A stretch of DNA of 48,423 bases from a virus, in the IMG/VR virus record IMGVR_UViG_3300034190_002406, positions 1 through 48,423 of that record. One strand, given 5' to 3'. Position numbers and translations under genes: made by a program. Below are positions 17,359 through 33,523 of this stretch, piece after piece. The notes below the pieces were generated by a model, which ran no database searches, was not told the origin of the DNA, and saw only the letters and a list, made by a program, of their open reading frames with translations. Position 1 is the stretch's first letter. Each line of letters opens with the position of its first letter.

Positions 17359-18174
17359 CTACTCAAAGTCGGCTTCTAGGTTGTCATGCTTTGCAACAGT
17401 GTATTCTCCCGCAGATCTTTCAGAGATGGCAGTCTTGTGTGCTGACAAGATCTTAGAGTTTTCTGATTCTACCATGTCAGCAAAGGTGCGTACCGTCTCA
17501 GCTGTCTTAATATCAAAGGGAGCTACTGAAGACGTATCAAAATCGTAATGCATGACATAGTACGTCACAGAACCATTCTTCTTACGCTCAAGCGTGACGT
17601 TGATCCAGAAGTCCCATACGGATGCTCCGTTAGGAAGTTTCTTAACCACCTCGTCTTCAAAAGGCATAAAGTTAGAACCTTTAAGAAGCATGATAGCAGG
17701 CTGGTTATCAATTTTAACGGTTTTGCCTAATGCATCTACCCCTTCATAGGATGTAAGGACCCGCAGTTGGCGGAAGCAGGTTACGTTCTTAAACCGCTCC
17801 TTTTCGTACTGCTCCATCTTACTCTTAGGCTTAGTCATTCCACACTTAGATGTACCGCGAGTGTCTAAAAACTCTTGGCGGAAGCTTTTGTTAAGATAGG
17901 TTTTACAAACTGTCTTATTCAGCTCTGGGTCATACTCAATATACTGATAGTGTTGACCGAGTACGCGGATCTTGATGTTTTTAGCATACGCTATCTCAGA
18001 ATGATCCCGGAGATACATTGTACCTCGAGGTAACTGATTGCCTGCCTCGTCCTCGTCATCGAGGTTTATCTTAACCAATGGAACACGGTCATTAGACTGT
18101 GCCTCTGGAACAACGCCCATCATTTCTTTTAGGCGTTGCTCTTCGTGTGGGTCTACTACTGCTAGATCGTTCAT
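17359..18174 (-). CDS. Probable ssDNA-binding protein (gp2.5-like role), 271 aa
   Basis: Beta-rich middle region (residues about 55-215) with basic and aromatic residues, and a short acidic C-terminal tail (NLEADFE), the arrangement of T7 gp2.5-type ssDNA-binding proteins where the tail recruits polymerase and primase. It sits next to the polymerase and exonuclease. The fold is inferred; sequence alone does not prove an OB-fold. A GAGGAG site precedes the ATG, and a promoter-like element lies at 18208-18236. Confidence 0.55.
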   Translation of the reverse strand: MNDLAVVDPHEEQRLKEMMGVVPEAQSNDRVPLVKINLDDEDEAGNQLPRGTMYLRDHSEIAYAKNIKIRVLGQHYQYIEYDPELNKTVCKTYLNKSFRQEFLDTRGTSKCGMTKPKSKMEQYEKERFKNVTCFRQLRVLTSYEGVDALGKTVKIDNQPAIMLLKGSNFMPFEDEVVKKLPNGASVWDFWINVTLERKKNGSVTYYVMHYDFDTSSVAPFDIKTAETVRTFADMVESENSKILSAHKTAISERSAGEYTVAKHDNLEADFE

Positions 18175-18197: not shown

Positions 18198-18218
18198 TAG
18201 GGTTACGTAGTTACCCTA
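18198..18218. promoter_or_regulatory. Inverted repeat at the SSB-gene promoter
   Basis: Arms TAGGGTTAC and GTTACCCTA with a 3-base centre (GTA), one mismatch. It overlaps the -10 of the leftward promoter, a position typical of a repressor operator. TAGGGT/GTTAC elements recur at other promoters in the window. Confidence 0.5.
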
Positions 18219-18236: not shown

Positions 18237-20381
18237 TTCAGTTTCTTCCATTTCCATCCAGTTTTTTCCAATTTCCATCTCGACATCGAGCGGCAAAACA
18301 AAGTCATAATTGAAGCGCTCCTTGATCTCCTCCTGTACACCAGACAGCGCCCACACCATTGCCTCCTTGACCTGGCTGATTTCCCCAGGAAAAACGTCTG
18401 CTACCAAGCTATCGTGCACAGTGAGTATGATCTTTGATTTTAGGTTGCGCTGCTTAAAAGCTCTCAAAGCACGAACACAGGCCAGCTGCATAATTATCCC
18501 GGCAAAGCCTTGTACAGGGTAATTTACGACTGCAGTGGCATTGGTGATACGCCCGTTGCCTAATCTCCTAGCATCCTCGAACATATACCGCTTGCCAGAC
18601 GGTATGCGAACTAGGCCATCCTGCAGTACACCGTCCATCAGACGTTTGTGCCAAGTGGCTAGGCCTTTGTAGAGCCCAAAATAGGCTTGAAAGTATGCTT
18701 GTATATGCTCAGGCTCAGTCATACCCATTCCGCCATATAAAGGAGAAAATGTATAAGATTTCGCGGCTTGGCGCATATCTTTTGTAACAGAAGATACCTC
18801 ACATTGGTTTATGATAGCCGCAGTTTGTTTATGTACGTCCTTCCCTGTGAGAATGTCTTCTATAATCTGGCTATCTTTGCTCAACTCTCCCGCAACGCGA
18901 AATTCAACTCCCGAGTAGTCGATCTCGCAAATTTTTCCGCCTTCAAACCTACTGATTATGCACTTACGTACCGGGAACTTAGATCCTTTGGGTAAATTTT
19001 GGAAATTTGGCTTGCTAGAGCTTAAACGACCTGTCCTGGCTATAGTTTGGTTGAAGTTAGGGTGTAGCAGGCCATCAAATCGAGTCCACTTACGTATCGC
19101 CCCGACAAAAGAAGACAGATAGGTACTGATAGCGTTGTAGCGCATGAATTTTGTAATGTATTCTACGGCTACATCGTTCTTCTTTGCCTGTGCCTGGACA
19201 ATCAAGCGTTTCAGGGTAACCTTGTCGGTCTTGAAGCCGTGAATAGAGGCATCTCTAGGCCCCTCTGGTACAAGCTTTAATCCTGCTCTCTCTCCAGTTG
19301 GTACGTAGAACACACCTAGGCCTTTGCACTCCGGGCAGGGGGATAAGTTCTTATAGGGCTCACCTTGTACTCTGTACTGTACCTTATTCTTAGTCCGGTA
19401 CTTCGTTTTGTACTTCTGGATGTTACCACTACCGTCACATGCACCACAGCACTGTATATGTGTCTTATCGACCAAGACAGTAGTAGTACGCACAGCGGTA
19501 TTGAACTGGGTTTTCTTTGGCATCCTAGCTGGAGGAAGTGGTTTTCCGTTTGGCCCTACCCCTATGTTAAAGATCCGGCGATGTAAGTCCCTATCAGTAA
19601 CCACTCGACCGTAGAAAACCTTGTTCATACAGATACCCGAATTCAAATTTATAGGGGTGTCTCCCATAAGTTTCTCGTTGGTAGCCTTGAGGTATCTACC
19701 TATTTCCTCTTGCTCAGCGATAAATTCCCGCTCTACGTCCTCCAGAACATCTAGATCAATCTTGCAGCCATTGTTCTCCATATGTGTGAGAAACTCTAGG
19801 TTAAGCCGCCCTAACTCGAAGCACGGCTTCATGTCCTCATATTCCGGTGAGTTAAGATCTTCTTCTTGCTGTAGGTATATTTCAGCACAGCTAATCACAT
19901 CAGCTTCTGCGTACTCTAAGACTGTATCAATGGGCATAGCCTCGAAGCCAGTGCCGCTCTTGAACATCTCGTCTACCAAATCAGATTTCTTACGAGTTAC
20001 GTCTCTTCGCTCAGCTGTAGCTTTGAGCGACAATAACCACGGCCTTGCCTGGGCAAACATAAACTCCCGAACCATAGTGCATTCAACAGGAGGTAGATCA
20101 AATTCCATATCGATAAGCCAAGAGGCATCGAATTTGGCATTGTGAAATACAGCCTTAGTGCAGCTGTCCAATGCGTCTTGTAAAGGTTTTCGGCCATCTG
20201 CTTTTGGCACATCATTGTGGTTCCACACCAGGTGATTGATAGGGGATATAACTCCATCCTCTATAATCACCCAATGAGCTGACACAGCATAGTTGTCTGG
20301 GTTCTTTGGACTGTTATCGATGTCACCTTCAATGATTGATACTTTTACCTCTAGGTCTCCCACAAACACCCTATTCGACAT
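18228..20381 (-). CDS. polA: Family A DNA polymerase with exonuclease and inserted DnaJ-like zinc module, 717 aa
   Basis: Replicative polymerase. Proofreading exonuclease motifs: Asp9-x-Glu11, HNAKFD (80-85), Tyr157-x3-Asp161. Residues 310-358 carry CCGAC-x-GSG and CPECKGLG, two CxxCxGxG knuckles of the DnaJ zinc-finger type, placed between exonuclease and palm; this arrangement is characteristic of HMO-2011-type phages. Polymerase motif A is EIDYSGVEFR (Asp488), motif B RQAAKSYTFSPLYG (Arg537, Lys541, Phe545, Tyr549), motif C VHDS (Asp657). Phe545 is the equivalent of E. coli Phe762. I chose the ATG at 20381, overlapping the helicase end by 11 bases with a GAGG site; a 36-residue N-terminal extension from 20489 looks unrelated to the fold. 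Confidence 0.95.
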   Translation of the reverse strand: MSNRVFVGDLEVKVSIIEGDIDNSPKNPDNYAVSAHWVIIEDGVISPINHLVWNHNDVPKADGRKPLQDALDSCTKAVFHNAKFDASWLIDMEFDLPPVECTMVREFMFAQARPWLLSLKATAERRDVTRKKSDLVDEMFKSGTGFEAMPIDTVLEYAEADVISCAEIYLQQEEDLNSPEYEDMKPCFELGRLNLEFLTHMENNGCKIDLDVLEDVEREFIAEQEEIGRYLKATNEKLMGDTPINLNSGICMNKVFYGRVVTDRDLHRRIFNIGVGPNGKPLPPARMPKKTQFNTAVRTTTVLVDKTHIQCCGACDGSGNIQKYKTKYRTKNKVQYRVQGEPYKNLSPCPECKGLGVFYVPTGERAGLKLVPEGPRDASIHGFKTDKVTLKRLIVQAQAKKNDVAVEYITKFMRYNAISTYLSSFVGAIRKWTRFDGLLHPNFNQTIARTGRLSSSKPNFQNLPKGSKFPVRKCIISRFEGGKICEIDYSGVEFRVAGELSKDSQIIEDILTGKDVHKQTAAIINQCEVSSVTKDMRQAAKSYTFSPLYGGMGMTEPEHIQAYFQAYFGLYKGLATWHKRLMDGVLQDGLVRIPSGKRYMFEDARRLGNGRITNATAVVNYPVQGFAGIIMQLACVRALRAFKQRNLKSKIILTVHDSLVADVFPGEISQVKEAMVWALSGVQEEIKERFNYDFVLPLDVEMEIGKNWMEMEETELT

Positions 20382-21597
20382 AGCGAGATACCTCGCCGTG
20401 TAGATTGCAGATGATCGTGTTGTGCCATCCGTTAATCTTGTTCTTAGATACTGTGATGAAACGTGTAGGATCTTCCTCTGCATCATCACTAGAGCCTGAG
20501 TGCTTGCCGAGACCGATAATGATATCAGCTTCAGCCGCTTTAGAGATCTTACTCCCTGCCATCATGTCGTAGGTAACACGGGTCTTACCTGTAGCATCGT
20601 TAGAAGCCTGGCTTACGCCCCAGATTACACAGTTATGACGCTTAGCACTTTCACGGGCTCTGCGGTATATCTCCCCTAGACGCTCATGGGTGGCGTTGTA
20701 GGAGCCTCTGACACTAATCTTATCGAGCTGGTCAATAAACACCGCTGCAGGTTTATGCTTAGCTAGTGCCGCCTCTACTTTCTCGATGTCCCAATCTTGA
20801 GCATCATATATGACCAGGCTACCCTGCATCTTGGCATTGAATATCAGCTCAGCTTGCTCACGTTCCTCGGCTACTCTTTCCTTTGTGTAACCCAGGGCAG
20901 TACCGTAAGCCCGTTTGATAGTGTCCTTGGTGCTTTCTTCGTTACCGATTATTAGAACCTTGTGACCCTGGTCTATATAACCTCCAGGCCCAAGAGCTAG
21001 GCTAAGCACAAACGCAGTTTTACCCGTTTCAGGAGTAGCAAAGATGATCCCGAACTTACGGCGGGTGATACCTGGTATCTTCCTGTGTAAAGAAGACAAG
21101 TTAAACTCAAGTAGACCCTCCTCTTCTTCCTCAGCTAAGATTTCTGTAATGTTGAGTGTCGTAGGCTCACCAAGATCATCTGGCATGTATCCTTCGCTGT
21201 TACGCTCAATCAATTCCAAAGCCTGTCTAAAGGCATCGTCGTTACCTTCTGAAATCTCCAGACCGTAGGAGGCTAACCTTTTACCTACGCTGCGCCTCCA
21301 CAGATGTTCGATGCTATCTTTTGCAATGTCAGGGCTGATCACAGAAGCTTCTTCGATGTCTTCCACAAGATCTTTCATATTATGACGGTCAGCCTTGGTA
21401 GCCACCGGATTGTTCAGCTTCCAAAGAGAAAGTAGCTCTTCGCAGGATAGGTTGTGCTGATATTTTTCATGGGCTTCTGTAATAACCTCATACAATTCTC
21501 GAATATCATCTTCAAATAACTGCTTCGATAGTTTTTCTTTGTTTTGTTCATAAAAGTCGTAAGATAACAGACTTTTTAGAAAGTTAGTGTCCAACAT
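20371..21597 (-). CDS. DnaB-like replicative helicase (gp4 helicase domain), 408 aa
   Basis: RecA-type motor: Walker A ATPETGKT (187-194), Walker B AAVFIDQLDKI near residue 295, the GVSQAS sensor and the late SKISKAAEADIIIGLGK segment common to T7 gp4/DnaB helicases. The first 150 residues are a helical domain with no zinc finger, so this is helicase only; the primase is a separate gene upstream. It drives fork unwinding with the polymerase encoded directly after it. Confidence 0.9.
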   Translation of the reverse strand: MLDTNFLKSLLSYDFYEQNKEKLSKQLFEDDIRELYEVITEAHEKYQHNLSCEELLSLWKLNNPVATKADRHNMKDLVEDIEEASVISPDIAKDSIEHLWRRSVGKRLASYGLEISEGNDDAFRQALELIERNSEGYMPDDLGEPTTLNITEILAEEEEEGLLEFNLSSLHRKIPGITRRKFGIIFATPETGKTAFVLSLALGPGGYIDQGHKVLIIGNEESTKDTIKRAYGTALGYTKERVAEEREQAELIFNAKMQGSLVIYDAQDWDIEKVEAALAKHKPAAVFIDQLDKISVRGSYNATHERLGEIYRRARESAKRHNCVIWGVSQASNDATGKTRVTYDMMAGSKISKAAEADIIIGLGKHSGSSDDAEEDPTRFITVSKNKINGWHNTIICNLHGEVSRYVE

Positions 21598-21625
21598 GTC
21601 TCACCCCTATGGTATGTATTAGGGT

Positions 21626-21637
21626 TGTAATATTACA
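21626..21637. promoter_or_regulatory. 12-bp perfect palindrome upstream of the helicase
   Basis: TGTAATATTACA, 29 bases before the helicase ATG and next to a TAGGGTT element. TATTACA also occurs at the left end of the window (1-7), at 26122 and at 27091, always in non-coding DNA. Possible operator. Confidence 0.4.
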
Positions 21638-24422: not shown

Positions 24423-24574
24423 TAGAACGGGGGTTCTCCGTTTTTATCCAACTCAGGAAGGTTATATTCAAACGTGCGGATTGGCGTAGGCTCTTCTGGG
24501 TCCGTATCAGTAGCAGTGATTACGCCCATGTCTGATAGGTAGTTAGCCAGCTCTACCGGTATCTGGTTATCCAT
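24422..24574 (-). CDS. Small hypothetical protein, 50 aa
   Basis: Reads MDNQIPVELANYLSDMGVIT and ends LPELDKNGEPPF. Joined to both neighbours by TAATG overlaps. Acidic, soluble; no family recognised. Confidence 0.6.
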   Translation of the reverse strand: MDNQIPVELANYLSDMGVITATDTDPEEPTPIRTFEYNLPELDKNGEPPF

Positions 24575-24819
24575 TAGGTATCCTCCAGATGTGCTTTTAG
24601 TTCTTCGTAGCCACCAATGTGTTCACCTCGATAGTCGAAGACTTGAGGCACAGTTGTTAGACCAGCCATCTTTACCAGGGTCTTGAGCCAAGCAGATGTA
24701 GTGCTATCTAAATTATGTGTGGTGAAGTTGATCTTATGCTGTCTAAGCAGGTCGATACATTTCTCACAGTACGCACAGCCTGGCTGCTTCAGTACTAAGT
24801 AACAGGTTAAGCTAGTCAT
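24574..24819 (-). CDS. grx: Glutaredoxin, 81 aa
   Basis: Thioredoxin-fold redox protein with active site CAYC preceded by KQPG, the cis-proline segment TVPQVF and the GGYEEL glutathione-binding end. Size matches classic glutaredoxins. A likely electron donor for the phage class II ribonucleotide reductase, although the two genes are in different transcription units. Overlaps both neighbours by 4 bases or less. Confidence 0.9.
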   Translation of the reverse strand: MTSLTCYLVLKQPGCAYCEKCIDLLRQHKINFTTHNLDSTTSAWLKTLVKMAGLTTVPQVFDYRGEHIGGYEELKAHLEDT

Positions 24820-24962
24820 TTACTGTCTCTCCTTCTAAGTTCATCTCGCACTTCCCGGATCAAGTCTATCAAACGCTCGGTCACTAATTGTGCAGGCTTG
24901 TTTGTTAGCCTCTGCATCTCTCTCTCAAATTCAACACGGGCTGCGTTAACGTCTTTAGTCAT
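24816..24962 (-). CDS. Small charged helical protein, 48 aa
   Basis: Reads MTKDVNAARVEFEREMQRLT and ends IREVRDELRRRDSK, a single amphipathic helix. ATGA overlaps tie it to the integrase upstream and the glutaredoxin downstream. Function unknown. Confidence 0.6.
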   Translation of the reverse strand: MTKDVNAARVEFEREMQRLTNKPAQLVTERLIDLIREVRDELRRRDSK

Positions 24963-26023
24963 CCAAACCTCTTCTTCATTCCATTTTTGGCTAATCCACG
25001 TGTGGGCCGTACATAGATGTTTAAGACATCCCTGCTTTGGTGGCCGGTTACTGCCCGTATTTCATCCGCTGAAGCACCGCTTTCAGCCATCTCAGTGGCT
25101 CCCGTGCGGCGTAGGTCCGCCATCCGTAGTTCATCTGGTAAACCAGCTTGCTGGCAAATGTTCCTAGCCTGCTTATAGTAGCTCCAGCGTGTGTGAGGGT
25201 GTCCAGTAAGGTCGTTAAGGACAATCGTGCCTGTAGAACGGTTACATGCTTCGATACGATCTAAGATTGGCTGCGTTAGATCTACGTCTACGTGAGTGCC
25301 TGTCTTCTCTTGCTTGAACCGCATCTCTGTGCCGTATAGCTGATCAAAGGTGACCTGACGCATATCACCTGGCCTCTGGCATAGGTGGTAACACATCAAA
25401 GCCATCAGACCCAGGTTTGGCATATTGTTTTCATCGCACGCAGACACAAACTGAGTAACCTGCTTTGTATCCCACATCACAGTACGGGACTTAGGAGCTT
25501 TTAGGCGCATCTTCTCAAAAGGATTATGCTGAACTCGGTTAGCTCGCTTAGCTACGTTCCATATCAGGCGCATAACCTTCATACAGTGTACCGCACGATG
25601 GTGGCTGAAGTTCTCTCTGATAGTATTCTTCAGTTTAACGCTATGTTCATTACTGACATTCTTAGCAAGCATGTCCCCGAACCGTACATTCGAGCTTTCT
25701 AGTCTGCTTTCGCTGACGTTTCTCATAAGCATACGAAAGCTGGTCTTAGTGTTCTTAGCGGTGTCTATGAACTCGTCTTGCCCCAGGTAATATGCAAACA
25801 CACCGTTGACTGTAGTGTCCTTGACTATGAAATCACGTGTGTTACGGCGCTTAAAGTCTATGTATTCATCATCGATTTTAGCACTGTATTTCCTAGCCTC
25901 GTCTATAGTGTCGAAGGGAAAGTACCTTACGCCTAGGGCATCCCGCAGGTATTTCGGAGGGTTAAAGGCCCAGTAAACTTTACCGTCAGCATGTTTGCGT
26001 TCATTCACATATTTGATATTCAT
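24959..26023 (-). CDS. int: Tyrosine recombinase (integrase), 354 aa
   Basis: Three parts: N-terminal arm-binding-like region (1-60), core-binding SAM-like domain (about 70-165), catalytic domain (about 180-354). Catalytic residues visible: Arg217 in CQRPGD, Lys240 in QEKTG, Arg305 in DLRRTGAT, His328 in TGHQS and nucleophile Tyr337 in NIYVRP. The usual His of the HxxR motif is Ala302 (ADLR). AGGAG lies before the ATG. With the tRNA-like attP at 23013 this supports site-specific integration. Confidence 0.92.
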   Translation of the reverse strand: MNIKYVNERKHADGKVYWAFNPPKYLRDALGVRYFPFDTIDEARKYSAKIDDEYIDFKRRNTRDFIVKDTTVNGVFAYYLGQDEFIDTAKNTKTSFRMLMRNVSESRLESSNVRFGDMLAKNVSNEHSVKLKNTIRENFSHHRAVHCMKVMRLIWNVAKRANRVQHNPFEKMRLKAPKSRTVMWDTKQVTQFVSACDENNMPNLGLMALMCYHLCQRPGDMRQVTFDQLYGTEMRFKQEKTGTHVDVDLTQPILDRIEACNRSTGTIVLNDLTGHPHTRWSYYKQARNICQQAGLPDELRMADLRRTGATEMAESGASADEIRAVTGHQSRDVLNIYVRPTRGLAKNGMKKRFG

Positions 26024-26045
26024 GTCCGTCTCCTAATGTATCCCT

Positions 26046-26060
26046 GTTACCTTAGTAAAC
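26046..26060. promoter_or_regulatory. Operator-like inverted repeat upstream of int
   Basis: GTTACC-TTA-GTAAAC, a 6-3-6 imperfect palindrome 23 bases before the int ATG. Its right half matches the half-site of the perfect repeat upstream of the regulator gene at 27036-27050. Confidence 0.5.
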
Positions 26061-26200
26061 GCTTCCGATAGGTATTAGCAAGCACAAAGTGATCTACTAA
26101 TGTAATTTTAGGGGTAGACATATTACACTATCGTATGTATCCTGCGGAGGCCTTTAGCCGGAGCAAACCCAAATAATCTATTATATATGCCTTACTACTA

Positions 26201-26215
26201 AGCGCCGGAGGCGCT
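26201..26215. repeat. Perfect inverted repeat in the int leader region
   Basis: AGCGCC-GGA-GGCGCT, 6-bp arms with a 3-base loop, no T-run on either side. GC-rich against AT-rich surroundings. May be an RNA hairpin or an integrase/regulator site. Confidence 0.5.
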
Positions 26216-26258
26216 GTATTCACATAGCCTTAAACAAATTACCTCCGCGTTAGGCATA

Positions 26259-26286
26259 AAAAAACCCAGCTTAGGCCGGGTTTTTT
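26259..26286. terminator. Bidirectional terminator between the 51-aa gene and int
   Basis: AAAAAACCC / GGGTTTTTT arms with a 10-base loop; each direction ends in a T-run. It insulates integrase expression from the regulator transcript. Confidence 0.85.
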
Positions 26287-26307
26287 CAGTCTATATTGAT
26301 TGAGTTG

Positions 26308-26463
26308 TTATATGATCTCTAAGTGCAAATCATAGTTCTCTAAGTGCAGCTTTGTCTTTTTATCTTTCAGTAAAGTATATAAGGCATCCGATAGATCCAT
26401 ACTATGAGCAAAGTTACCCAAAATTTCTGCCAGCTTAATTACTTCGTCCTTTTTTATCTTCAT
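26308..26463 (-). CDS. Small hypothetical protein downstream of the regulator, 51 aa
   Basis: Reads MKIKKDEVIKLAEILGNFAH and ends with a short repeat (KLHLENYDLHLEII) encoded by a direct repeat of about 12 bases. A GAGGTAG site precedes the ATG. It follows the winged-helix regulator and ends just before a terminator, so the two may form one operon. Function unknown; a regulator partner is conceivable. Confidence 0.6.
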   Translation of the reverse strand: MKIKKDEVIKLAEILGNFAHSMDLSDALYTLLKDKKTKLHLENYDLHLEII

Positions 26464-26536
26464 AGTATCTACCTCAGTTTGAAAATGTAGAGAGATACAT
26501 AAGGTAATATTGGTCTCAATTCGATACCAAGCAGCT

Positions 26537-27004
26537 TTACAATGAATTCGACCTACTACTGTTTTCTTCTAGGTCTATAACTTTCTCTAAATTATCTAAC
26601 AGGCGCAACGCAGTTAGGTGACCTGTTTCCTCAGAGGTTTTTCTATATATATCAAACCAATCTTCAGCCATGTCTAACAATATCTGTTTACCTCGACAAA
26701 GCCGGGTCTTTCGAGCACCAGGTCTTGTAATTATCCAATCCTCAGCCTCTGTATCATCAACCATCTGAATAACGGTAACTCTGGAAACACCCAGTAGCTT
26801 CGATATTTTTGATACACTGTAGTCTTGGTCAGTTAAGGTCGCGTGTACCATTAATTTAGCAAACGACTCCCGTGTTCCCGAGCTGTTGAAGTACCTTAGC
26901 TGCTTACTACTCTGCCGTGTGTTATATGCTTGTAGCAGAGATATCTCATGAGAGATGACGGCGGCTATAGCTTTCTCGCGTACATGCTTTTGATATCGTC
27001 GCAT
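26537..27004 (-). CDS. Winged-helix (MarR/HTH type) transcription regulator, 155 aa
   Basis: Residues 62-93 (YSVSKISKLLGVSRVTVIQM and following) form a clear helix-turn-helix with a wing-like RPGARKTRL after it. The flanking N-terminal and C-terminal helices (about 5-55 and 105-150) probably dimerise. AGGAGA lies 7 bases before the ATG. A perfect 15-bp palindrome stands 32 bases upstream, consistent with autoregulation. Its place next to int suggests a lysogeny or integration regulator. No CI-like fold or peptidase domain is present. Confidence 0.75.
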   Translation of the reverse strand: MRRYQKHVREKAIAAVISHEISLLQAYNTRQSSKQLRYFNSSGTRESFAKLMVHATLTDQDYSVSKISKLLGVSRVTVIQMVDDTEAEDWIITRPGARKTRLCRGKQILLDMAEDWFDIYRKTSEETGHLTALRLLDNLEKVIDLEENSSRSNSL

Positions 27005-27035
27005 GTAATCTTCTCCTACCTGTGTGATCTTATAC

Positions 27036-27050
27036 GTAAACCTAGTTTAC
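27036..27050. promoter_or_regulatory. Perfect palindromic operator upstream of the regulator gene
   Basis: GTAAAC-CTA-GTTTAC, 6-bp arms with a 3-base centre. The spacing equals about one helical turn between half-sites, typical of a dimeric helix-turn-helix protein. Related repeats occur at 18198, 26046 and 31254. Confidence 0.6.
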
Positions 27051-27094
27051 AAAGCTACAGGTTGCAATAGGGTAAGTATAGAGGTATCAATATT

Positions 27095-27113
27095 ACACCA
27101 CACCCTGTGGTGT
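27095..27113. repeat. Perfect inverted repeat between regulator and accessory cassette
   Basis: ACACCACA-CCC-TGTGGTGT, 8-bp arms with a 3-base loop, not followed by Ts. Could be a second operator or a hairpin at the 5' end of the regulator message. Confidence 0.6.
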
Positions 27114-27126
27114 CCCTCCCTCCCTG

Positions 27127-27162
27127 AAGGCCTGGCATTAATTTGCTGGGCCTTTTTTTTTT
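27127..27162 (+). terminator. Rightward terminator at the left edge of the accessory cassette
   Basis: AAGGCCTGGC / GCTGGGCCTT stem (8 of 10 pairs) followed by ten Ts. No rightward gene lies just before it, so it may block read-through into the cassette or be a relic of insertion. Bases 27163-27373 after it are non-coding and AT-rich, with no convincing promoter. Confidence 0.75.
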
Positions 27163-27373
27163 GTTAAAAATTCCCGCGCGTTAACTCACATAAATCCCTA
27201 CTGTAATGTGCCTGTACGCAAGGTATGTAAGGCATGCTTGTGTTTCATTAAGGTAATTTCAAAATGATTTACTGATGTGATTTTTAATGTTGCAAAGTGT
27301 TTTGATCTATGTATTTTGATTTCTACCAGCTGATTTGTGGCTGGCTAACTTAACCAACGGAGGCGACCAATCA

Positions 27374-28081
27374 ATGCCGTTATTAGTAACGAACAACGGG
27401 AACACAAAGATCCGCAAGAGTGCCGAGCAATCTGGCATGCGGATCGCGTCCCTAAGCTTATGGCCAGATCATAAGATATGCCCAGGCTCGAAAGCAGCCG
27501 GATGCATGGATCTGTGCTTAAAAAGTGAAGGCCGGGGAAAGATGCAATCTGTGCAGCTGGCTCGATCTAACAAAACCGAGCTCTGGCATAATGACCGGGC
27601 AAGGTTTCTAGAGATGTTATTCGAGGAGATTTTTGTTTGGATCCGGCGATGCAAAAAAAGCGGAGACAAGGCAGCAATTCGCCTTAATACAATCAGCGAT
27701 ATAGCCTGGGAGCAATATGGGATCTTCGAAGAATTTCCCGACCTGTTTGGCTACGATTACACTAAACGAGTGCAGCGCCTGGGACGTACCCCAGATAATT
27801 ACAAGCTGATATTTTCCTACAGTGCCGAGCCAGCTTACCAGGGATCGGTTAACCGAGCTTTAAACACAAGTCACCCGATTGCGGTAGTTTTCCGGGGTGG
27901 CCTGCCTGGGGAATACCTGGGGCGATCCGTCATCGATGGCGATAAAAGCGATATCATTAACGTGATGGCTGGCCCGGTTGTGATCGGGCTGAAGGCAAAA
28001 GGCACCAGCGGCAAGCGCAGCCTGGCCAGTAATTCAAATTTTATTGTCGATAATCCTGAAAGCTTGGAGGTAGCAGCATGA
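27374..28081 (+). CDS. Gp88-family-like protein, 235 aa
   Basis: The N-terminal SLSLWPDHKICPGSKAAGC followed by MDLCLKSEGRGKM is the cysteine-rich block that I associate with phage Gp88-type proteins; later segments AIRLNTISDIAWE and YDYTKR, and YSAEPAY fit the same family. Function unknown; the Cys residues could bind metal. The ATG at 27374 is chosen because GGAGG lies upstream and the family block starts close to it; the longer reading from 27335 adds 13 residues. It opens the accessory cassette. Confidence 0.7.
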   Translation: MPLLVTNNGNTKIRKSAEQSGMRIASLSLWPDHKICPGSKAAGCMDLCLKSEGRGKMQSVQLARSNKTELWHNDRARFLEMLFEEIFVWIRRCKKSGDKAAIRLNTISDIAWEQYGIFEEFPDLFGYDYTKRVQRLGRTPDNYKLIFSYSAEPAYQGSVNRALNTSHPIAVVFRGGLPGEYLGRSVIDGDKSDIINVMAGPVVIGLKAKGTSGKRSLASNSNFIVDNPESLEVAA

Positions 28082-28410
28082 GCAAGCACATTCACCTATA
28101 TCAGTTACTGTCTGATGATGAAAAGCAGATGCTACAGGATACACCTGACGGGGAAGAATATTCCGAAGCATATAAAAAGCTTCGCCGTAAACACTTCCCC
28201 AAAATGAACAAAGAATTTTCCAAGCTTCATGTCGATAACCAGCGCCGCCTGCGGGAGCTTTTCACAATTGTGGAGCGGGTAGTCAAGAGCATTCACGACT
28301 GCGGAGATGTTTGGACTAGCGACTACAGAAAACTGGCGGACAGCCTGAGCTGCCTCGATGATTTTATCACCGGAGATATCGGTTACATCGAGGAAGGGAA
28401 GCCCGAATGA
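28078..28410 (+). CDS. Hypothetical cassette protein, 110 aa
   Basis: Helical and charged (KAYKKLRRKHFPKMNKEFSK-like basic patch, then a long helix). ATGA overlap with the Gp88-like gene and a 4-base overlap with the next. No family recognised. Confidence 0.6.
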   Translation: MSKHIHLYQLLSDDEKQMLQDTPDGEEYSEAYKKLRRKHFPKMNKEFSKLHVDNQRRLRELFTIVERVVKSIHDCGDVWTSDYRKLADSLSCLDDFITGDIGYIEEGKPE

Positions 28411-28631
28411 AAACCATAATTCACGTTAACCAACACATCATCAGATCCAACACGAAGGGAGGTGAAAGCAAGCCGCCGCTGACCGTAAAGACATACAAGG
28501 AAAACAGAAAGGCATTTACGGCTGAATTCGAGGGCAAGGGCAGGGTGATCTATTCCCCGGAAAAGCCCCTGCCTTGCGGCGCTAAGGTTTGGATAGAGAC
28601 CGAAAGCGAGGTGTATATAGATGCTCGCTAA
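28407..28631 (+). CDS. Hypothetical cassette protein, 74 aa
   Basis: Small beta-rich protein (PPLTVKTYKENRKAFTAEFE, then GRVIYSPEKPLPCGAKVWIE). Overlaps both neighbours. Looks like a small barrel; function unknown. Confidence 0.6.
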   Translation: MKTIIHVNQHIIRSNTKGGESKPPLTVKTYKENRKAFTAEFEGKGRVIYSPEKPLPCGAKVWIETESEVYIDAR

Positions 28632-28704
28632 ATTCTACCAGGTGATCGGCTTTATCATATGCTGGACCTGGCTTCTACAAATTCTAAAAAACTCAAACAA
28701 CTAA
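28621..28704 (+). CDS. Tiny membrane peptide, 27 aa
   Basis: MLAKFYQVIGFIICWTWLLQ followed by ILKNSNN: one hydrophobic helix. It overlaps the preceding gene by 11 bases and ends 17 bases before the DUF932-like start. Small size lowers confidence. Confidence 0.4.
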   Translation: MLAKFYQVIGFIICWTWLLQILKNSNN

Positions 28705-28721
28705 GAAAGCGACCAAAAAAA

Positions 28722-29585
28722 ATGACACAAGATCTTATCTTTTCACGTAATACATCTAATGCAACCTTGTCCCTGGTGGACATCATGGAACGCGCACCAG
28801 CTGCCTTATGGAATGTTAAAGGCGAGCAGCGAGGCGAAAATTACGCGCATATCCAAACCCGGCAAGCGATCGATATCCTGGCCGATCATGGATACCAGGT
28901 AACACAAGCCGCCCAGGTTAAATCCAGAAAGCATTCTGATGCTCTATATGCTCGGCACCTCTTGGCGCTTAGCAATCCAGACCTCGAAACAGAAGAAGGG
29001 ACGCCCGAGATTATCCTGTATAATTCCGGAGATGGTAAATCGGCGCTGCGCATGTTCGCAGGTTTCTATCGGTTCATTTGCTCAAATGGTCTCGTGGCGG
29101 GATCCGGCTTCGAGGTTAAGGCCCGGCACAGTAAAGCCACGGCCAGCAACTTCGAGGGCATGATCAAACAAACCGCGGAAAATTTCCCCTGGATGTTAGC
29201 CCAGATTAAACAAATGAAAGCGACCACAATCACAGCGAACCGAGAGCTAGCGTTAGCAGAAAATGCGGTAAAATTACGCTGGGATAAATTTAGCCGGGAT
29301 CATTTGGATGACGAGGGTAATTTTAAGCACGGCATATATTCCACACCGATGACAGTTCGAGGCCTGATCAATCCGACCAGGGCAGAGGATCAACCACGCA
29401 ATTTGTGGACCTCGTTTAATAAGATCCAGGAGGGATTGATCCGGGGAGGTGTAAAGACTTTGAGCGTAACCAAACGCAATCCAGGCGGCACCACCCGGAA
29501 GTCCCGGCCAATGGGGAACGTGAAAGCGAGCCTCGATGTTAACCGACAGTTGTGGGATCTGGTGGCTAACCAGGTGGCCGCATGA
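28722..29585 (+). CDS. DUF932-like phage/plasmid protein, 287 aa
   Basis: Segments EIILYNSGDGKSALRMFAGF, YRFICSNGLVAG and NRELALAENAVKLRWD, followed by NLWTSFNKIQEGLIRGG, match the DUF932 (phage/plasmid-like TIGR03299) pattern. These proteins occur on plasmids and phages; no activity is established. I chose the ATG at 28722; the 28659 reading adds 21 basic residues that overlap the tiny upstream peptide. The leader has GCGACCA before the start, as in other cassette genes. Confidence 0.8.
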   Translation: MTQDLIFSRNTSNATLSLVDIMERAPAALWNVKGEQRGENYAHIQTRQAIDILADHGYQVTQAAQVKSRKHSDALYARHLLALSNPDLETEEGTPEIILYNSGDGKSALRMFAGFYRFICSNGLVAGSGFEVKARHSKATASNFEGMIKQTAENFPWMLAQIKQMKATTITANRELALAENAVKLRWDKFSRDHLDDEGNFKHGIYSTPMTVRGLINPTRAEDQPRNLWTSFNKIQEGLIRGGVKTLSVTKRNPGGTTRKSRPMGNVKASLDVNRQLWDLVANQVAA

Positions 29586-29671
29586 AGGATTGGCTTGGCG
29601 ATCTTCTGGGCGCTCTGTGCCTGTTTGGTGGTGCCTGGCTCTGGCTTATTATTGCCTGGGCGATCAGCTAA
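29582..29671 (+). CDS. Tiny membrane peptide, 29 aa
   Basis: MKDWLGDLLGALCLFGGAWL then WLIIAWAIS: a single very hydrophobic, Trp-rich helix. Joined to the DUF932-like gene by an ATGA overlap and followed by a terminator at 29701. The second such peptide in the cassette. Confidence 0.5.
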   Translation: MKDWLGDLLGALCLFGGAWLWLIIAWAIS

Positions 29672-29700
29672 AAAATTGATGTAACTGTTAGGGTGAGAAA

Positions 29701-29724
29701 GGGGCTTTAATTAGTCCCTTTTTT
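29701..29724 (+). terminator. Terminator after the DUF932-like operon
   Basis: GGGGCT / AGTCCC stem (one G-T pair), 6-base loop, then TTTTTT. Ends the first cassette operon. Confidence 0.75.
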
Positions 29725-29780
29725 ATTTTAATAATGGGGCACCGGATTAGCCGGGATTTAACAGAAAAGGCGACCAGCTT

Positions 29781-29942
29781 ATGATTACTAATGAATGGAA
29801 CAGAGATTTACCTGCACTCGAAAAGCAGAAGGAAAAAGCTTTCGATGATATGATCGATACCAGGCTCGAGGGTATGATCACTCGCATTGATACCCTACTG
29901 GAAAAACTAAAAGCCCCCAGCTCGACAGATCGTGAGGTGTGA
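29781..29942 (+). CDS. Small coiled-coil cassette protein, 53 aa
   Basis: MITNEWNRDLPALEKQKEKA followed by FDDMIDTRLEGMITRIDTLL and a polar end: one long amphipathic helix. AAGGCGACCAGCTT precedes the ATG, the leader motif shared by cassette genes. Two bases separate its stop from the next ATG. Function unknown. Confidence 0.6.
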   Translation: MITNEWNRDLPALEKQKEKAFDDMIDTRLEGMITRIDTLLEKLKAPSSTDREV

Positions 29943-29944
29943 TC

Positions 29945-30556
29945 ATGAAATTCAACATAACAGTTTTGAAGCTAAAGCTTTCACGCGAGCAATCGGCAGA
30001 GGTTAACGAAAAGGGATCCTGGTCAAACACTATTTGGGGCACCTCTTATCTGAATTTAAATCATCTCGGCATAGATGATGCAGATAAACACATCATCACA
30101 AGCGATCTTTATCTCCTGGCTGATAGCGGGATGTATCACACCGCGGCTCGATACCAGATCGAAAGAAACCAGAGATACCAGGAGATGAGCGGGGAGCATC
30201 CGGGCGATCGGGAATATGATTGGTTTGCCGACCAGGTGTTTGACGCGGATAACCTGGGGATCAAAAAAGATCTGATCTGGTCTAAGCCCCGCATGCCTTC
30301 GATGTCAGTGGGAGATATTGCAATCATCGAGCGGCCAGGCTTGCCGGATCCTTCCGAGGCTCGTTACCTGGTGGCCGCTAGCTTTGGCTGGGTGGCACTA
30401 AAGGAACCGCAGAAGCAACTACTCGATCAACTAACCTGGTCCGATCGCATGGAAAGCTTTAGCAGCCAGGAACTACAGCAGAGCGAGAAAGAACATTACA
30501 GACGCTGGGCGGATGTTAACCTGCCTTTAAGCGCCGAACCATTGCAGGAGGCTTGA
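29945..30556 (+). CDS. Hypothetical cassette protein, 203 aa
   Basis: Mixed alpha/beta soluble protein; segments TSYLNLNHLGIDDADKHIIT, MSVGDIAIIERPGLP and ARYLVAASFGWVAL are notable. The middle section (VGDIAII ... YLVAASFGW) resembles a small beta-barrel. The ATG at 29945 with GAGGTG upstream is preferred to a GTG two codons earlier. Last gene of the cassette, followed by a strong terminator. No family recognised. Confidence 0.6.
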   Translation: MKFNITVLKLKLSREQSAEVNEKGSWSNTIWGTSYLNLNHLGIDDADKHIITSDLYLLADSGMYHTAARYQIERNQRYQEMSGEHPGDREYDWFADQVFDADNLGIKKDLIWSKPRMPSMSVGDIAIIERPGLPDPSEARYLVAASFGWVALKEPQKQLLDQLTWSDRMESFSSQELQQSEKEHYRRWADVNLPLSAEPLQEA

Positions 30557-30599
30557 TCATATCCATTCAATAGCTCAGCTCACCAGGAAAGCTTTAAGG

Positions 30600-30625
30600 C
30601 CCCGGCATTGCGTCCGGGGTTTTTT
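30600..30625 (+). terminator. Strong terminator at the right edge of the cassette
   Basis: CCCCGG / CCGGGG perfect stem, 8-base loop, then TTTTTT. Confidence 0.85.
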
Positions 30626-31232
30626 ATTGCCTGCCCGGCGATCCTATCCAGATCATCAAGAAACCTGACATCGATGACAGCTCCGGCGCTATGCTGTTCG
30701 GCTAGCCTGCTCCTGATTGCCTGGCCTGGATCCTGGTTTAGCCTGGTGGATGTTCTCCCGGCTTTCCCTGGGGATTGTCTGAGGGCCTGGCCGATCGGTT
30801 ACCCGGCGACATCGAGCAAGGTCATATGCATACATAACAAGGCACCCCTCGCCTGGTTATTTTTTACGTCACGCATATGAAATAATTGCGCAGCTGGTGG
30901 ATCCTTTGCAGCTATTTCCCTTCGCTTTGACCAATTAGGTAGTAGGTTTATTAGAGATTATTATTCATTCCCTGAGGCTTAGCTTTTACCCGTGCTGCCG
31001 ATCGGATCCTGGTGCCTGCTAATCATAAGAATAAGGCAGATCCAGGCTAAACTTTTACCCCGGCGAGTGCCACCCCCCCTCCCCCCGGTATCGTATACAA
31101 CACCCTCCCAATTTTAGGAAAATACGGACTGTAAAGTGGGCCGAGTATAGACCCAAAGCTAGCCGAGGTATTTGTACTGTCACCTATATTCGTTAATACG
31201 TAATGATATCATAGGATTAGGTTACATTTCAG
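30626..31232. other. Non-coding interval between cassette and early promoter
   Basis: No convincing gene: the rightward ORF at 30608-30880 begins in a terminator and has no ribosome site. It contains two similar elements, GCTTAGCTTTTACCC (30977-30991) and GCTAAACTTTTACCCC (31046-31061); the first 13 bases of the second also occur at 18-30. A C-rich run lies at 31073-31087. Several AT-rich stretches follow from 31170. A replication origin or a regulatory hub is possible; nothing proves it. Confidence 0.4.
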
Positions 31233-31261
31233 TTGACTAGGGTATTAGTTTAGGTTACTAT
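31233..31261 (+). promoter_or_regulatory. Strong sigma70-type promoter for the early right operon
   Basis: TTGACT (31233-31238), 17-base spacer, TACTAT (31256-31261), 30 bases before the first gene. Read by host RNA polymerase; no phage polymerase gene is seen in the window. Confidence 0.8.
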
Positions 31262-31270
31262 TAGGGTAAC
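31254..31270. promoter_or_regulatory. Operator-like inverted repeat over the -10
   Basis: GTTAC-(7 bases)-GTAAC, covering the -10 and the likely start point. TAGGTTAC-like copies lie just upstream (31218-31225, 31251-31258). Related to repeats near int, the regulator and the SSB gene. Confidence 0.45.
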
Positions 31271-31290
31271 TTGTTAGTAGTGAGTACGGT

Positions 31291-31608
31291 ATGGACGAAG
31301 TTAGCGTAGGTTTTACCCTTCAATACGAGCATTATCTAGACTTTGATGAGTCTGATGGGCTGGTGCTTCAGTTATTCGCTGGAGAGGCTCATGCTAATGA
31401 CCCTGTAGAACTAACCATACCCTTCGAGGAACTATTCGAGGAGATGATGGTAGAGGGTAAGCAGGATTTAGACTATCAGTTTCTGTATAACATGGCCCAT
31501 GAGTTTAATCGGTATTCGGAGCTAGCCAGAGAGGCTGCTAGGATGATTGAGGATAGCTCATCTTCGCTAGAGGATATGTATGGGTTGGATATCGGGGATC
31601 TCGATTGA
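31291..31608 (+). CDS. Very acidic early protein, 105 aa (DNA-mimic candidate)
   Basis: I count 27 Asp/Glu against 4 Lys/Arg, net charge about -23, with acids spread through the chain and no membrane segment. It is the first gene behind a strong host-type promoter. T7 Ocr (gp0.3, about 117 aa, first early gene) has the same profile and mimics DNA to block restriction enzymes. There is no sequence match to Ocr that I can see; the role is inference. Confidence 0.65.
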   Translation: MDEVSVGFTLQYEHYLDFDESDGLVLQLFAGEAHANDPVELTIPFEELFEEMMVEGKQDLDYQFLYNMAHEFNRYSELAREAARMIEDSSSSLEDMYGLDIGDLD

Positions 31609-32051
31609 GCTTATTCCCTCCACAAGACACGATAGATAAAATATCTAACCAACAGACCGGTCGGATTGGTGAACTATTGGCCGCGTATTACCTGGAAATG
31701 TACGGTATTGGTACAGAGATCATTAGAGGTATTGGCAGTGATCTTTGGTGCCGGAGATCTGATGGTCTGATGTTTACGTGTGAAGTTAAGACTTGCCACA
31801 TTCCTTACGTTCAGAGTTCTACTTGTACCATGCCTTCATACAGGTTCTCCATTGTTTCTGATGTCCAGCGGTCAGCTGATATCCATGCTTTGGTAGCGTT
31901 AGATATTGGAGGTGTTCATTTTATGGCTACCTCTGAGCTACCTGCAGGCGGTAAGAAGACACTGAAGGCTCAGCGTTTCAATGAGAGCTGGATATTTCCG
32001 AGCTTAGAGACTGCCTTAAAGAGTGTAGTAGGAAATAAGAAAGCAGCCTAG
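31605..32051 (+). CDS. PD-(D/E)xK-like nuclease, 148 aa
   Basis: TGRIGELLAAYYLEMYGI, then IGSDLW and FTCEVKT: the E ... D ... E-x-K spacing of the PD-(D/E)xK nuclease fold, as in Holliday junction resolvase and homing-type enzymes. It starts at a TTG (31605) that overlaps the stop of the acidic protein, so it is coupled to it. Acting early, it might degrade host DNA or serve recombination. Distinct from the resolvase-like protein at 16145. Confidence 0.65.
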   Translation: MSLFPPQDTIDKISNQQTGRIGELLAAYYLEMYGIGTEIIRGIGSDLWCRRSDGLMFTCEVKTCHIPYVQSSTCTMPSYRFSIVSDVQRSADIHALVALDIGGVHFMATSELPAGGKKTLKAQRFNESWIFPSLETALKSVVGNKKAA

Positions 32052-32070
32052 CGGTTAAGCCAGACTGCTT
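32041..32070 (+). other. Hairpin at the end of the early nuclease gene
   Basis: AAGCAGCCT / AGACTGCTT arms (8 of 9 pairs) with a 12-base loop, overlapping the stop codon. No T-run follows, so it is a processing or stability hairpin rather than a clear terminator. Confidence 0.45.
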
Positions 32071-32180
32071 GATTGAATACAGGATTAGTAGGGTGGTTAT
32101 ATATATACCGGCCCGAACAACTAAGTTCGATTATATCATGGATTACCCATTTTGTAAATCCCCAAAAATCAGTTAAGTGA

Positions 32181-32209
32181 TTGACTTTGATTGCTTAATT
32201 TGAGATAAT
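32181..32209 (+). promoter_or_regulatory. Sigma70-type promoter upstream of the small-gene run
   Basis: TTGACT (32181-32186), 17-base spacer, GATAAT (32204-32209), followed 17 bases later by the next gene. Start of transcription is expected almost at the ATG, so a short leader or leaderless message is possible. Confidence 0.8.
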
Positions 32210-32225
32210 GTACTTATAGGCCCTA

Positions 32226-32459
32226 ATGATCAACTTATACTATATCCGTGCAGCCATCGAGGCTAACACTGGTATCCGCCTTAGTCTCTCCGAAGTTCGT
32301 ACATACCTTGTTGAAGAAGGTTTGATAACGCAGCGCCAAGCTGACGAGGAAGCTAAGACGTTTACTGGCTACAGTGATATGTTCACGTTTGATGATGCAT
32401 CTCGAGTGACTGAAGACTTTGATCACAACATGGGGCTCCCAGATAGTTACGTGTCCTAG
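32226..32459 (+). CDS. Hypothetical protein, 77 aa
   Basis: Helical N-terminal half with a helix-turn-helix-like run (LSEVRTYLVEEGLITQRQAD), acidic C-terminal half. Its ATG lies 17 bases after a good -10 and there is no clear ribosome site. Possibly regulatory; family not recognised. Confidence 0.55.
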   Translation: MINLYYIRAAIEANTGIRLSLSEVRTYLVEEGLITQRQADEEAKTFTGYSDMFTFDDASRVTEDFDHNMGLPDSYVS

Positions 32460-33334: not shown

Positions 33335-33340
33335 TATAAT
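33335..33340 (+). promoter_or_regulatory. -10-like TATAAT before the DUF1127-like gene
   Basis: TATAAT 28 bases before the ATG, followed by CTTAGTTCAACTAAGGAG, whose CTTAGTT and AACTAAG arms form a small hairpin next to the ribosome site. No convincing -35. Confidence 0.4.
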
Positions 33341-33367
33341 TACCTTAGTTCAACTAAGGAGACTAAC

Positions 33368-33523
33368 ATGAACTTCATTAAATCTATATTCACCAGCATC
33401 GCCCGAGCACAACAAGCCCGTGTTCATTATTGGCAGCTACAAAACCTCACAGACAAAGAGCTCCGGGATATTGGAATTACCCGCGGTCAGATCCGAGGGA
33501 TATTATCGGGGGAGTCAAAATAA
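33368..33523 (+). CDS. DUF1127-like small protein, 51 aa
   Basis: Reads MNFIKSIFTSIARAQQARVH, then LQNLTDKELRDIGITRGQI: the LxxLxDxxLxDIGIxRxxI core of DUF1127 (YjiS-like) proteins, common in alphaproteobacteria where small Arg-rich versions affect phosphate and RNA physiology. A GGAG site sits upstream, with a TATAAT at 33335. Probably captured from a host. Confidence 0.85.
   Translation: MNFIKSIFTSIARAQQARVHYWQLQNLTDKELRDIGITRGQIRGILSGESK

Follow-up and report, generated by a model that had tools for sequence, protein, structure and literature searches.

Promoter-linked elements with lineage-specific spelling in an HMO-2011-type podovirus and its relatives: a candidate operator set

Short repeated sequences at the integrase (int), regulator and early promoters of a viral genome raise the question of whether they form one operator set, and of which protein would read it. 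The DNA analysed here as a whole (the window) is a single viral record of 48,423 bases. Judged from polymerase, terminase and integrase similarity (50-53%, about 68% and 28-42% identity, respectively, with the Roseobacter phages CRP-3, CRP-212, CRP-235 and CRP-738), it is the genome of an HMO-2011-type podovirus near these four phages. Family-A DNA polymerase, helicase, primase and terminase are found in the order common to HMO-2011-type phages, and the gene order agrees with that of the CRP phages, int lying upstream of the replication module in both. According to the available part of PMC9038755, this is a dominant and widespread marine group; the part of PMC6918029 at hand reports integration of CRP-3 into a host tRNA-Met gene, and in these portions of both papers int-bearing members are taken as temperate. 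Scanning the window for tRNA genes and Rfam families gave no match, so that the attachment site could not be placed there. A DNA-level search of the phage collection with window positions 24500-32400 found nothing. The genome scan for related integrases gave no relative among 51 pattern matches and that with the regulator described below a single match (33%), in a flavobacterial metagenome-assembled genome; consequently, a host or prophage of the window lineage was not found.

The original prediction listed four sequences, all of which are present where it placed them, and described them as GTTAC/GTAAAC inverted repeats. The repeats do exist, but just one, the 15-bp GTAAACCTAGTTTAC (27036-27050, minus strand; core CCTAGT), is perfectly palindromic; it is located 32-46 bases upstream of the start of a gene for a 155-aa MarR/ArsR-type winged-helix protein (26537-27004, minus strand). 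Upstream of the tyrosine integrase gene (24959-26023, minus strand), the element at 26046-26060 (minus strand) reads GTTACCTTAGTAAAC, or GTTTACTAAGGTAAC on the int strand; it is imperfect and overlaps a probable -10, TACTAA. A 51-aa ORF lies between regulator and int (26308-26463, minus strand), immediately upstream of the latter; small ORFs occupy this place in L026, CRP-3, CRP-212 and CRP-235, but only three records showed sequence similarity.

Two facing elements, TAGGGTTAC-GTA-GTTACCCTA (TAGGGTAAC-TAC-GTAACCCTA on the gene strand), occupy 18198-18218 (minus strand) at the promoter of the 271-aa gene that follows the DNA polymerase (17359-18174, minus strand). This gene had been labelled as SSB, and it has no Pfam or PHROG match. 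The promoter has a good -35, TTGACT, and synteny with relatives supports its place, but the -10 is poor in the window phage. The early promoter carries TTAGGTTAC (31217), TTGACTAGGGTATTAG (31233, at the -35) and TTAGGTTACTATTAGGGTAAC (31250, over the -10 TACTAT) within 31217-31270 (plus strand), and the predicted GTTAC-7-GTAAC (31254-31270) does sit on a good promoter, TTGACT-17-TACTAT. The first early-operon gene behind it (105 aa, 31291-31608, plus strand) has homologues in all four CRP phages. Two further sites were absent from the original prediction. One, TATAATTACCTTAGTTCAACTAAGG (33335-33359, plus strand), lies at the promoter of a 51-aa DUF1127 protein (33368-33523, plus strand; PF06568, E 1.1e-9) with similar proteins in all four CRP phages, DUF1127 being a small family common in alphaproteobacteria. 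The other is a decayed element (21619-21636, minus strand) at the promoter of the helicase gene (20371-21597, minus strand), the helicase annotation being taken from the CRP phages.

A single asymmetric element, ACTARGGTAAC, describes the repeats better than GTTAC palindromes do. Aligned on the gene strand, the copies read TACTAAGGTAAC (int), TACTAGGGTAAC (post-polymerase gene), AACTAGGTTTAC (regulator) and GACTAGGGTATT (early, at the -35), with AACTAAGGTAAT for DUF1127 on the opposite strand. With the intergenic set being our own selection from the open reading frame list, ACTARGGTA occurs four times in 48.4 kb and each time between genes, at the int, post-polymerase, early and DUF1127 promoters, which bears out the proposal of a promoter-linked set. 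Looser patterns behave similarly in the window: ACTARGKTW is intergenic in 6/8 cases, TARGGTAA in 7/10 and YTARGKTWAC in 5/5, dinucleotide shuffles giving 1.7 of the latter per whole window. Bare GTTAC shows no intergenic excess, with 8 of 111 copies between genes against 8.3% of the window; nor are inverted repeats with six-base arms and a spacer of at most 3 in excess (52 vs 50.5 in shuffles). As the sites themselves served to derive these patterns, enrichment within the window is partly circular, and independent support therefore comes from relatives.

In the close relatives L002 and L003, the regulator palindrome (27036-27050) is identical and the int element intact; the latter is altered in L025 and in L026, the imperfect form of L026 reading GTTACTAAGGTGAT. 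The double element at the post-polymerase promoter is kept in L003 and L007-L012, and in L010, L011 and L012 it is retained down to about 70-75% DNA identity. At the early promoter, the right-hand element is kept in L004 and in the diverged L006 and altered in L005, and the DUF1127-promoter site is the same in L004 and L005. The helicase promoters of L010 and L025, which were not used in drawing the pattern, carry GTTACCCTAA intact, immediately behind a TATAGT -10; L026 has an imperfect GTAACCCTATAA there. L003 and L006 each have one more match, which by synteny falls inside a gene.

Outside this lineage, CRP-3 and CRP-212 do not carry the element of the window. Their promoters of int, the post-polymerase gene, the early operon and DUF1127, as well as other intergenic places, bear GCACYTAACTARGTGC / ACACYTAACTARGTGT, complete or as a half. 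With at most 3 mismatches, this CRP element is intergenic in 3/3 cases in CRP-3 and 4/5 in CRP-212, column-shuffled controls averaging 0.1 intergenic matches. The DUF1127 promoter has palindromes of its own in both phages, and the candidate operator sequence of CRP-3 is GCACTTAACTAGGTGC. CRP-738 and CRP-235 fit less well, with two intergenic places each at two mismatches. L215, a 53,147-bp record, has TAAGGTAG three times in the 20.7 kb analysed, and all three are at the post-polymerase, helicase and early promoters; its helicase promoter bears the palindrome-like GCTACCTTAGTAGC. Two TAAGGTAA words in L215 (6375 and 18101) fall at none of the four promoters examined.

An identical 16-bp palindrome, ACACCTAACTAAGTGT, is present in CRP-212 (L017) at 348-363 and 25972-25987, one copy being upstream of int and the other far off, between two structural-region genes. 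TTGACGTGCCAGTC in CRP-3 (L015/L019) and CTGACGTGCGAGTA in CRP-235 (L016/L020) are found near the record end and upstream of int; these end and int motifs are possibly integrase arm sites.

Do the promoters of one phage resemble each other more than those of different phages? From all loci with the relevant genes, windows upstream of the int, helicase, post-polymerase and early genes were taken, near-identical windows were grouped as lineages, and the longest word common to two promoters was compared between same-phage and different-phage pairs over 20,000 permutations. Word sharing was greater within than between phages for five of six promoter pairs, with p values from 0.00005 to 0.005: post-polymerase/helicase (8.16 vs 7.24, 32 lineages, p 0.0001), helicase/int (8.00 vs 7.18, 45 lineages, p 0.00005), helicase/early (8.31 vs 7.20, 16 lineages, p 0.0003), post-polymerase/early (9.17 vs 7.82, 12 lineages, p 0.0035) and post-polymerase/int (7.90 vs 7.30, 29 lineages, p 0.0047; p 0.003 with 33 lineages). 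For int/early it was not significant (p 0.068). Gene-internal controls of equal length gave p 0.06-0.24, except int/early (p 0.035), and upstream-shifted windows p 0.10-0.68, except helicase/int (p 0.014). When words were required to hold at least 3 G/C, post-polymerase/int gave p 0.04 vs 0.053 in the coding control. Examples of lineage words are CTAGTGACACTAA (L038), TGCCACTTAGT (L084) and TAGGGTAACT (window).

A short core, CYTAGT, is shared by many of them. It is present in 16/34 post-polymerase, 15/55 helicase, 19/55 int and 10/19 early promoter windows, against 1/34, 2/55, 4/55 and 1/18 coding windows and 4/34, 3/55, 2/55 and 4/19 upstream-shifted windows, in the same order. Both the core counts and the comparisons with early genes are noisy, since for some early genes, those of L215 and L092 among them, the start was called further downstream than is probable. 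Taken together, an element is found at several promoters, enriched over coding DNA and kept in relatives.

Several of the copies share bases with -10 hexamers (TACTAT and TACTAA, for example), and one could imagine that the words are nothing but sigma-factor promoter sequence, i.e. variants of -35, spacer and -10, with no regulator involved. We regard this as quite improbable: the conserved part is adjacent to the hexamers, as TARGGTAAC past the -10 or CACYTAACTA within the spacer, CRP-3 and CRP-212 have it in palindromic form, and equivalent promoters carry different words in different lineages. The word-sharing test would also pick up host-specific preferences in promoters or regulators, as phages that infect different hosts differ in these. 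A host transcription factor could thus read the sites, lineages differing because hosts differ, and a factor of this kind would largely give the pattern seen, including a core common to lineages that differ in spelling; moreover, no conserved phage-encoded reader was found. Weakly against it, CRP-3, CRP-212 and CRP-235 share one host strain and yet differ in spelling, and we consider a host reader unlikely.

The 155-aa winged-helix protein encoded next to the palindrome was the reader put forward originally. Its class is supported by model and fold searches. The AlphaFold2 model (26 sequences; mean pLDDT 91.1) displays the MarR helix arrangement around a winged helix, the winged-helix domain being flanked by N-terminal and C-terminal helices. 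MarR-type regulators come first in Foldseek (best 2a61, E 9.7e-5; the ST1710-DNA complex 3gfi is among them), and a second aligner returns ArsR- and MarR-type repressors at Z 10-11. The fold resembles that of the solved regulators Tm0710, ST1710, MepR, CadC and CzrA, but, unlike members of the MarR/ArsR families, the sequence is below every Pfam cut-off: the curated MarR model is not matched at cut-off, and only sub-threshold HTH models appear. MarR dimers bind short palindromes.

Relatives of this protein are often neighbors of recombinases. Full-length homologues, 27% identical, are gp4 of CRP-403 and gp3 of CRP-118, two Autographiviridae roseophages; that of CRP-403 matches MarR_2 at E 2.7e-4, below cut-off. 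Each is separated by two genes from an integrase. These phages differ from the window in belonging to another family and having their own RNA polymerase, and no window-like palindrome was noticed in the 150 bases upstream of either gene. Another 35 viral loci hold relatives. In 40 records with a relative, a serine recombinase is directly upstream in 20, a tyrosine recombinase nearby in six clear and two weak cases, a primase match is present in five and an HMO-type integrase in L002, L003 and L079; four have none of these types. L133, L135 and L136 have the relative upstream of a tyrosine integrase, with a LuxR-type (GerE) protein in between in L133.

This company of recombinases of two unrelated kinds would suit a recombination directionality factor, the int-side sites binding either the 155-aa protein or the integrase, and winged-helix directionality factors exist (PMC11963761, in the part available). 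Such a role would leave the early, DUF1127 and post-polymerase sites unexplained, and the attachment site was not located in the window; we find it very improbable.

In a further reading, the protein would be a lysogeny repressor that reads all sites, its own promoter included. The MarR/ArsR fold with a mean pLDDT of 91, the 15-bp palindrome that precedes its gene and is preserved in L002 and L003, the relatives adjoining serine or tyrosine recombinases, and the alteration of the int site in L026, which is without the gene, would all agree with it. The distribution of the gene argues otherwise. Searched with a profile of the protein, 22 records that hold a related integrase or polymerase, L026 and the complete records of L215 and the four CRP phages included, gave no match, while 5/6 positive-control records did; in the sixth, L079, the match to the regulator had been weak already (E 1.6e-4) and did not recur with the profile. 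In the syntenic stretch of L026 the gene is absent and only a small ORF is present. Equivalent elements at the same promoters occur in L215 and the four CRP phages, whose records are without the gene from end to end; they are most evident in CRP-3 and CRP-212, and the L026 helicase promoter still has its imperfect element. The early and post-polymerase sites, in addition, are without the palindrome form of the site before the 155-aa gene. The gene is therefore not present wherever the operators are, the elements at these promoters are independent of it, and the notion that it tracks them was dropped. That this protein reads the whole set, as originally proposed, is not upheld; as a repressor of all sites we consider it doubtful, and as a general reader of the element unlikely. 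The gene may be another target of the regulon, or the protein may read its own palindrome.

Another candidate reader was the conserved 77-aa protein at 32226-32459, which has a sub-threshold winged-helix match; its model was poor (mean pLDDT 65.7). Separately, L005 has, behind its early promoter and ahead of its homologue of the 31291 gene, a 58-codon gene (L005:1679-1855) with a helix-turn-helix look, the early element reading TTAAGGTAGTTTG there; its product could be a DNA-binding protein under the early promoter. Opposite the early operon of the window, a near-consensus promoter, TTTACA-17-TATAAT (11/12), lies in the stretch 32158-32041 on the minus strand, with a terminator-like hairpin (32070-32041) about 60 bases past it; promoter and hairpin are a candidate for a short antisense or small RNA.

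For the elements themselves, operators of one regulon, read by a phage-encoded DNA-binding protein whose specificity differs between lineages, appear to us an evenly balanced proposition. The element lies on or next to the promoters of int, the DUF1127 gene and the post-polymerase and early operons, and in relatives that of helicase; in the window's lineage the operator would be spelled ACTARGGTAAC. A protein presumably binds these sites and would mostly block host RNA polymerase, since the sites extend over the -10 or spacer of promoters resembling those of host sigma-70, and this binding may time replication and lysogeny. The general reader would be a factor other than the 155-aa protein. 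The latter looks like an addition in the window's lineage, where it probably acts on its own promoter via the perfect palindrome and may use the int site jointly with that factor. Operators that change together at several promoters while the core is kept are what one would expect of a repressor whose specificity shifts between immunity groups. Extended to HMO-2011-type phages at large, the proposal is that int, helicase, replication and early operators are replaced as a set between lineages, with CYTAGT retained and a fast-changing phage reader, as an immunity-group system; this we put forward tentatively, as somewhat short of an even case.

As to precedents within the group, the words 'repressor' and 'promoter' are absent from the main text of PMC6918029 and PMC9038755, and 'repressor' from PMC11092137. 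Among the literature matches listed for HMO-2011 with promoter, operator or repressor, only one mentions HMO-2011, in the accessible part of a work on a Psychrobacter phage. We found no description of a regulator or operator of HMO-2011-type phages in the portions of the literature examined, nor is their lysis-lysogeny choice described in the available parts of PMC9038755 and PMC6918029. A lineage-specific operator set would predict which phages share immunity and would supply bait DNA for pulling out the regulator.

The nearest known relatives of the arrangement are the CRP phages themselves. CRP-3, CRP-212, CRP-235 and CRP-738 resemble the window in that the promoters of int, the post-polymerase gene, the early operon and DUF1127 have an element, most distinctly so in CRP-3 and CRP-212; they differ in its spelling, CACYTAACTARGTG, and in lacking a homologue of the 155-aa protein. 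Further afield, the stoperators of cluster A mycobacteriophages and the immunity groups of lambdoid phages consist of operator copies at several promoters with group-specific sequence. By this analogy, the set described here appears to be of an already known kind; in cluster A mycobacteriophages and lambdoid phages, unlike in the group of the window phage, the repressor is known.
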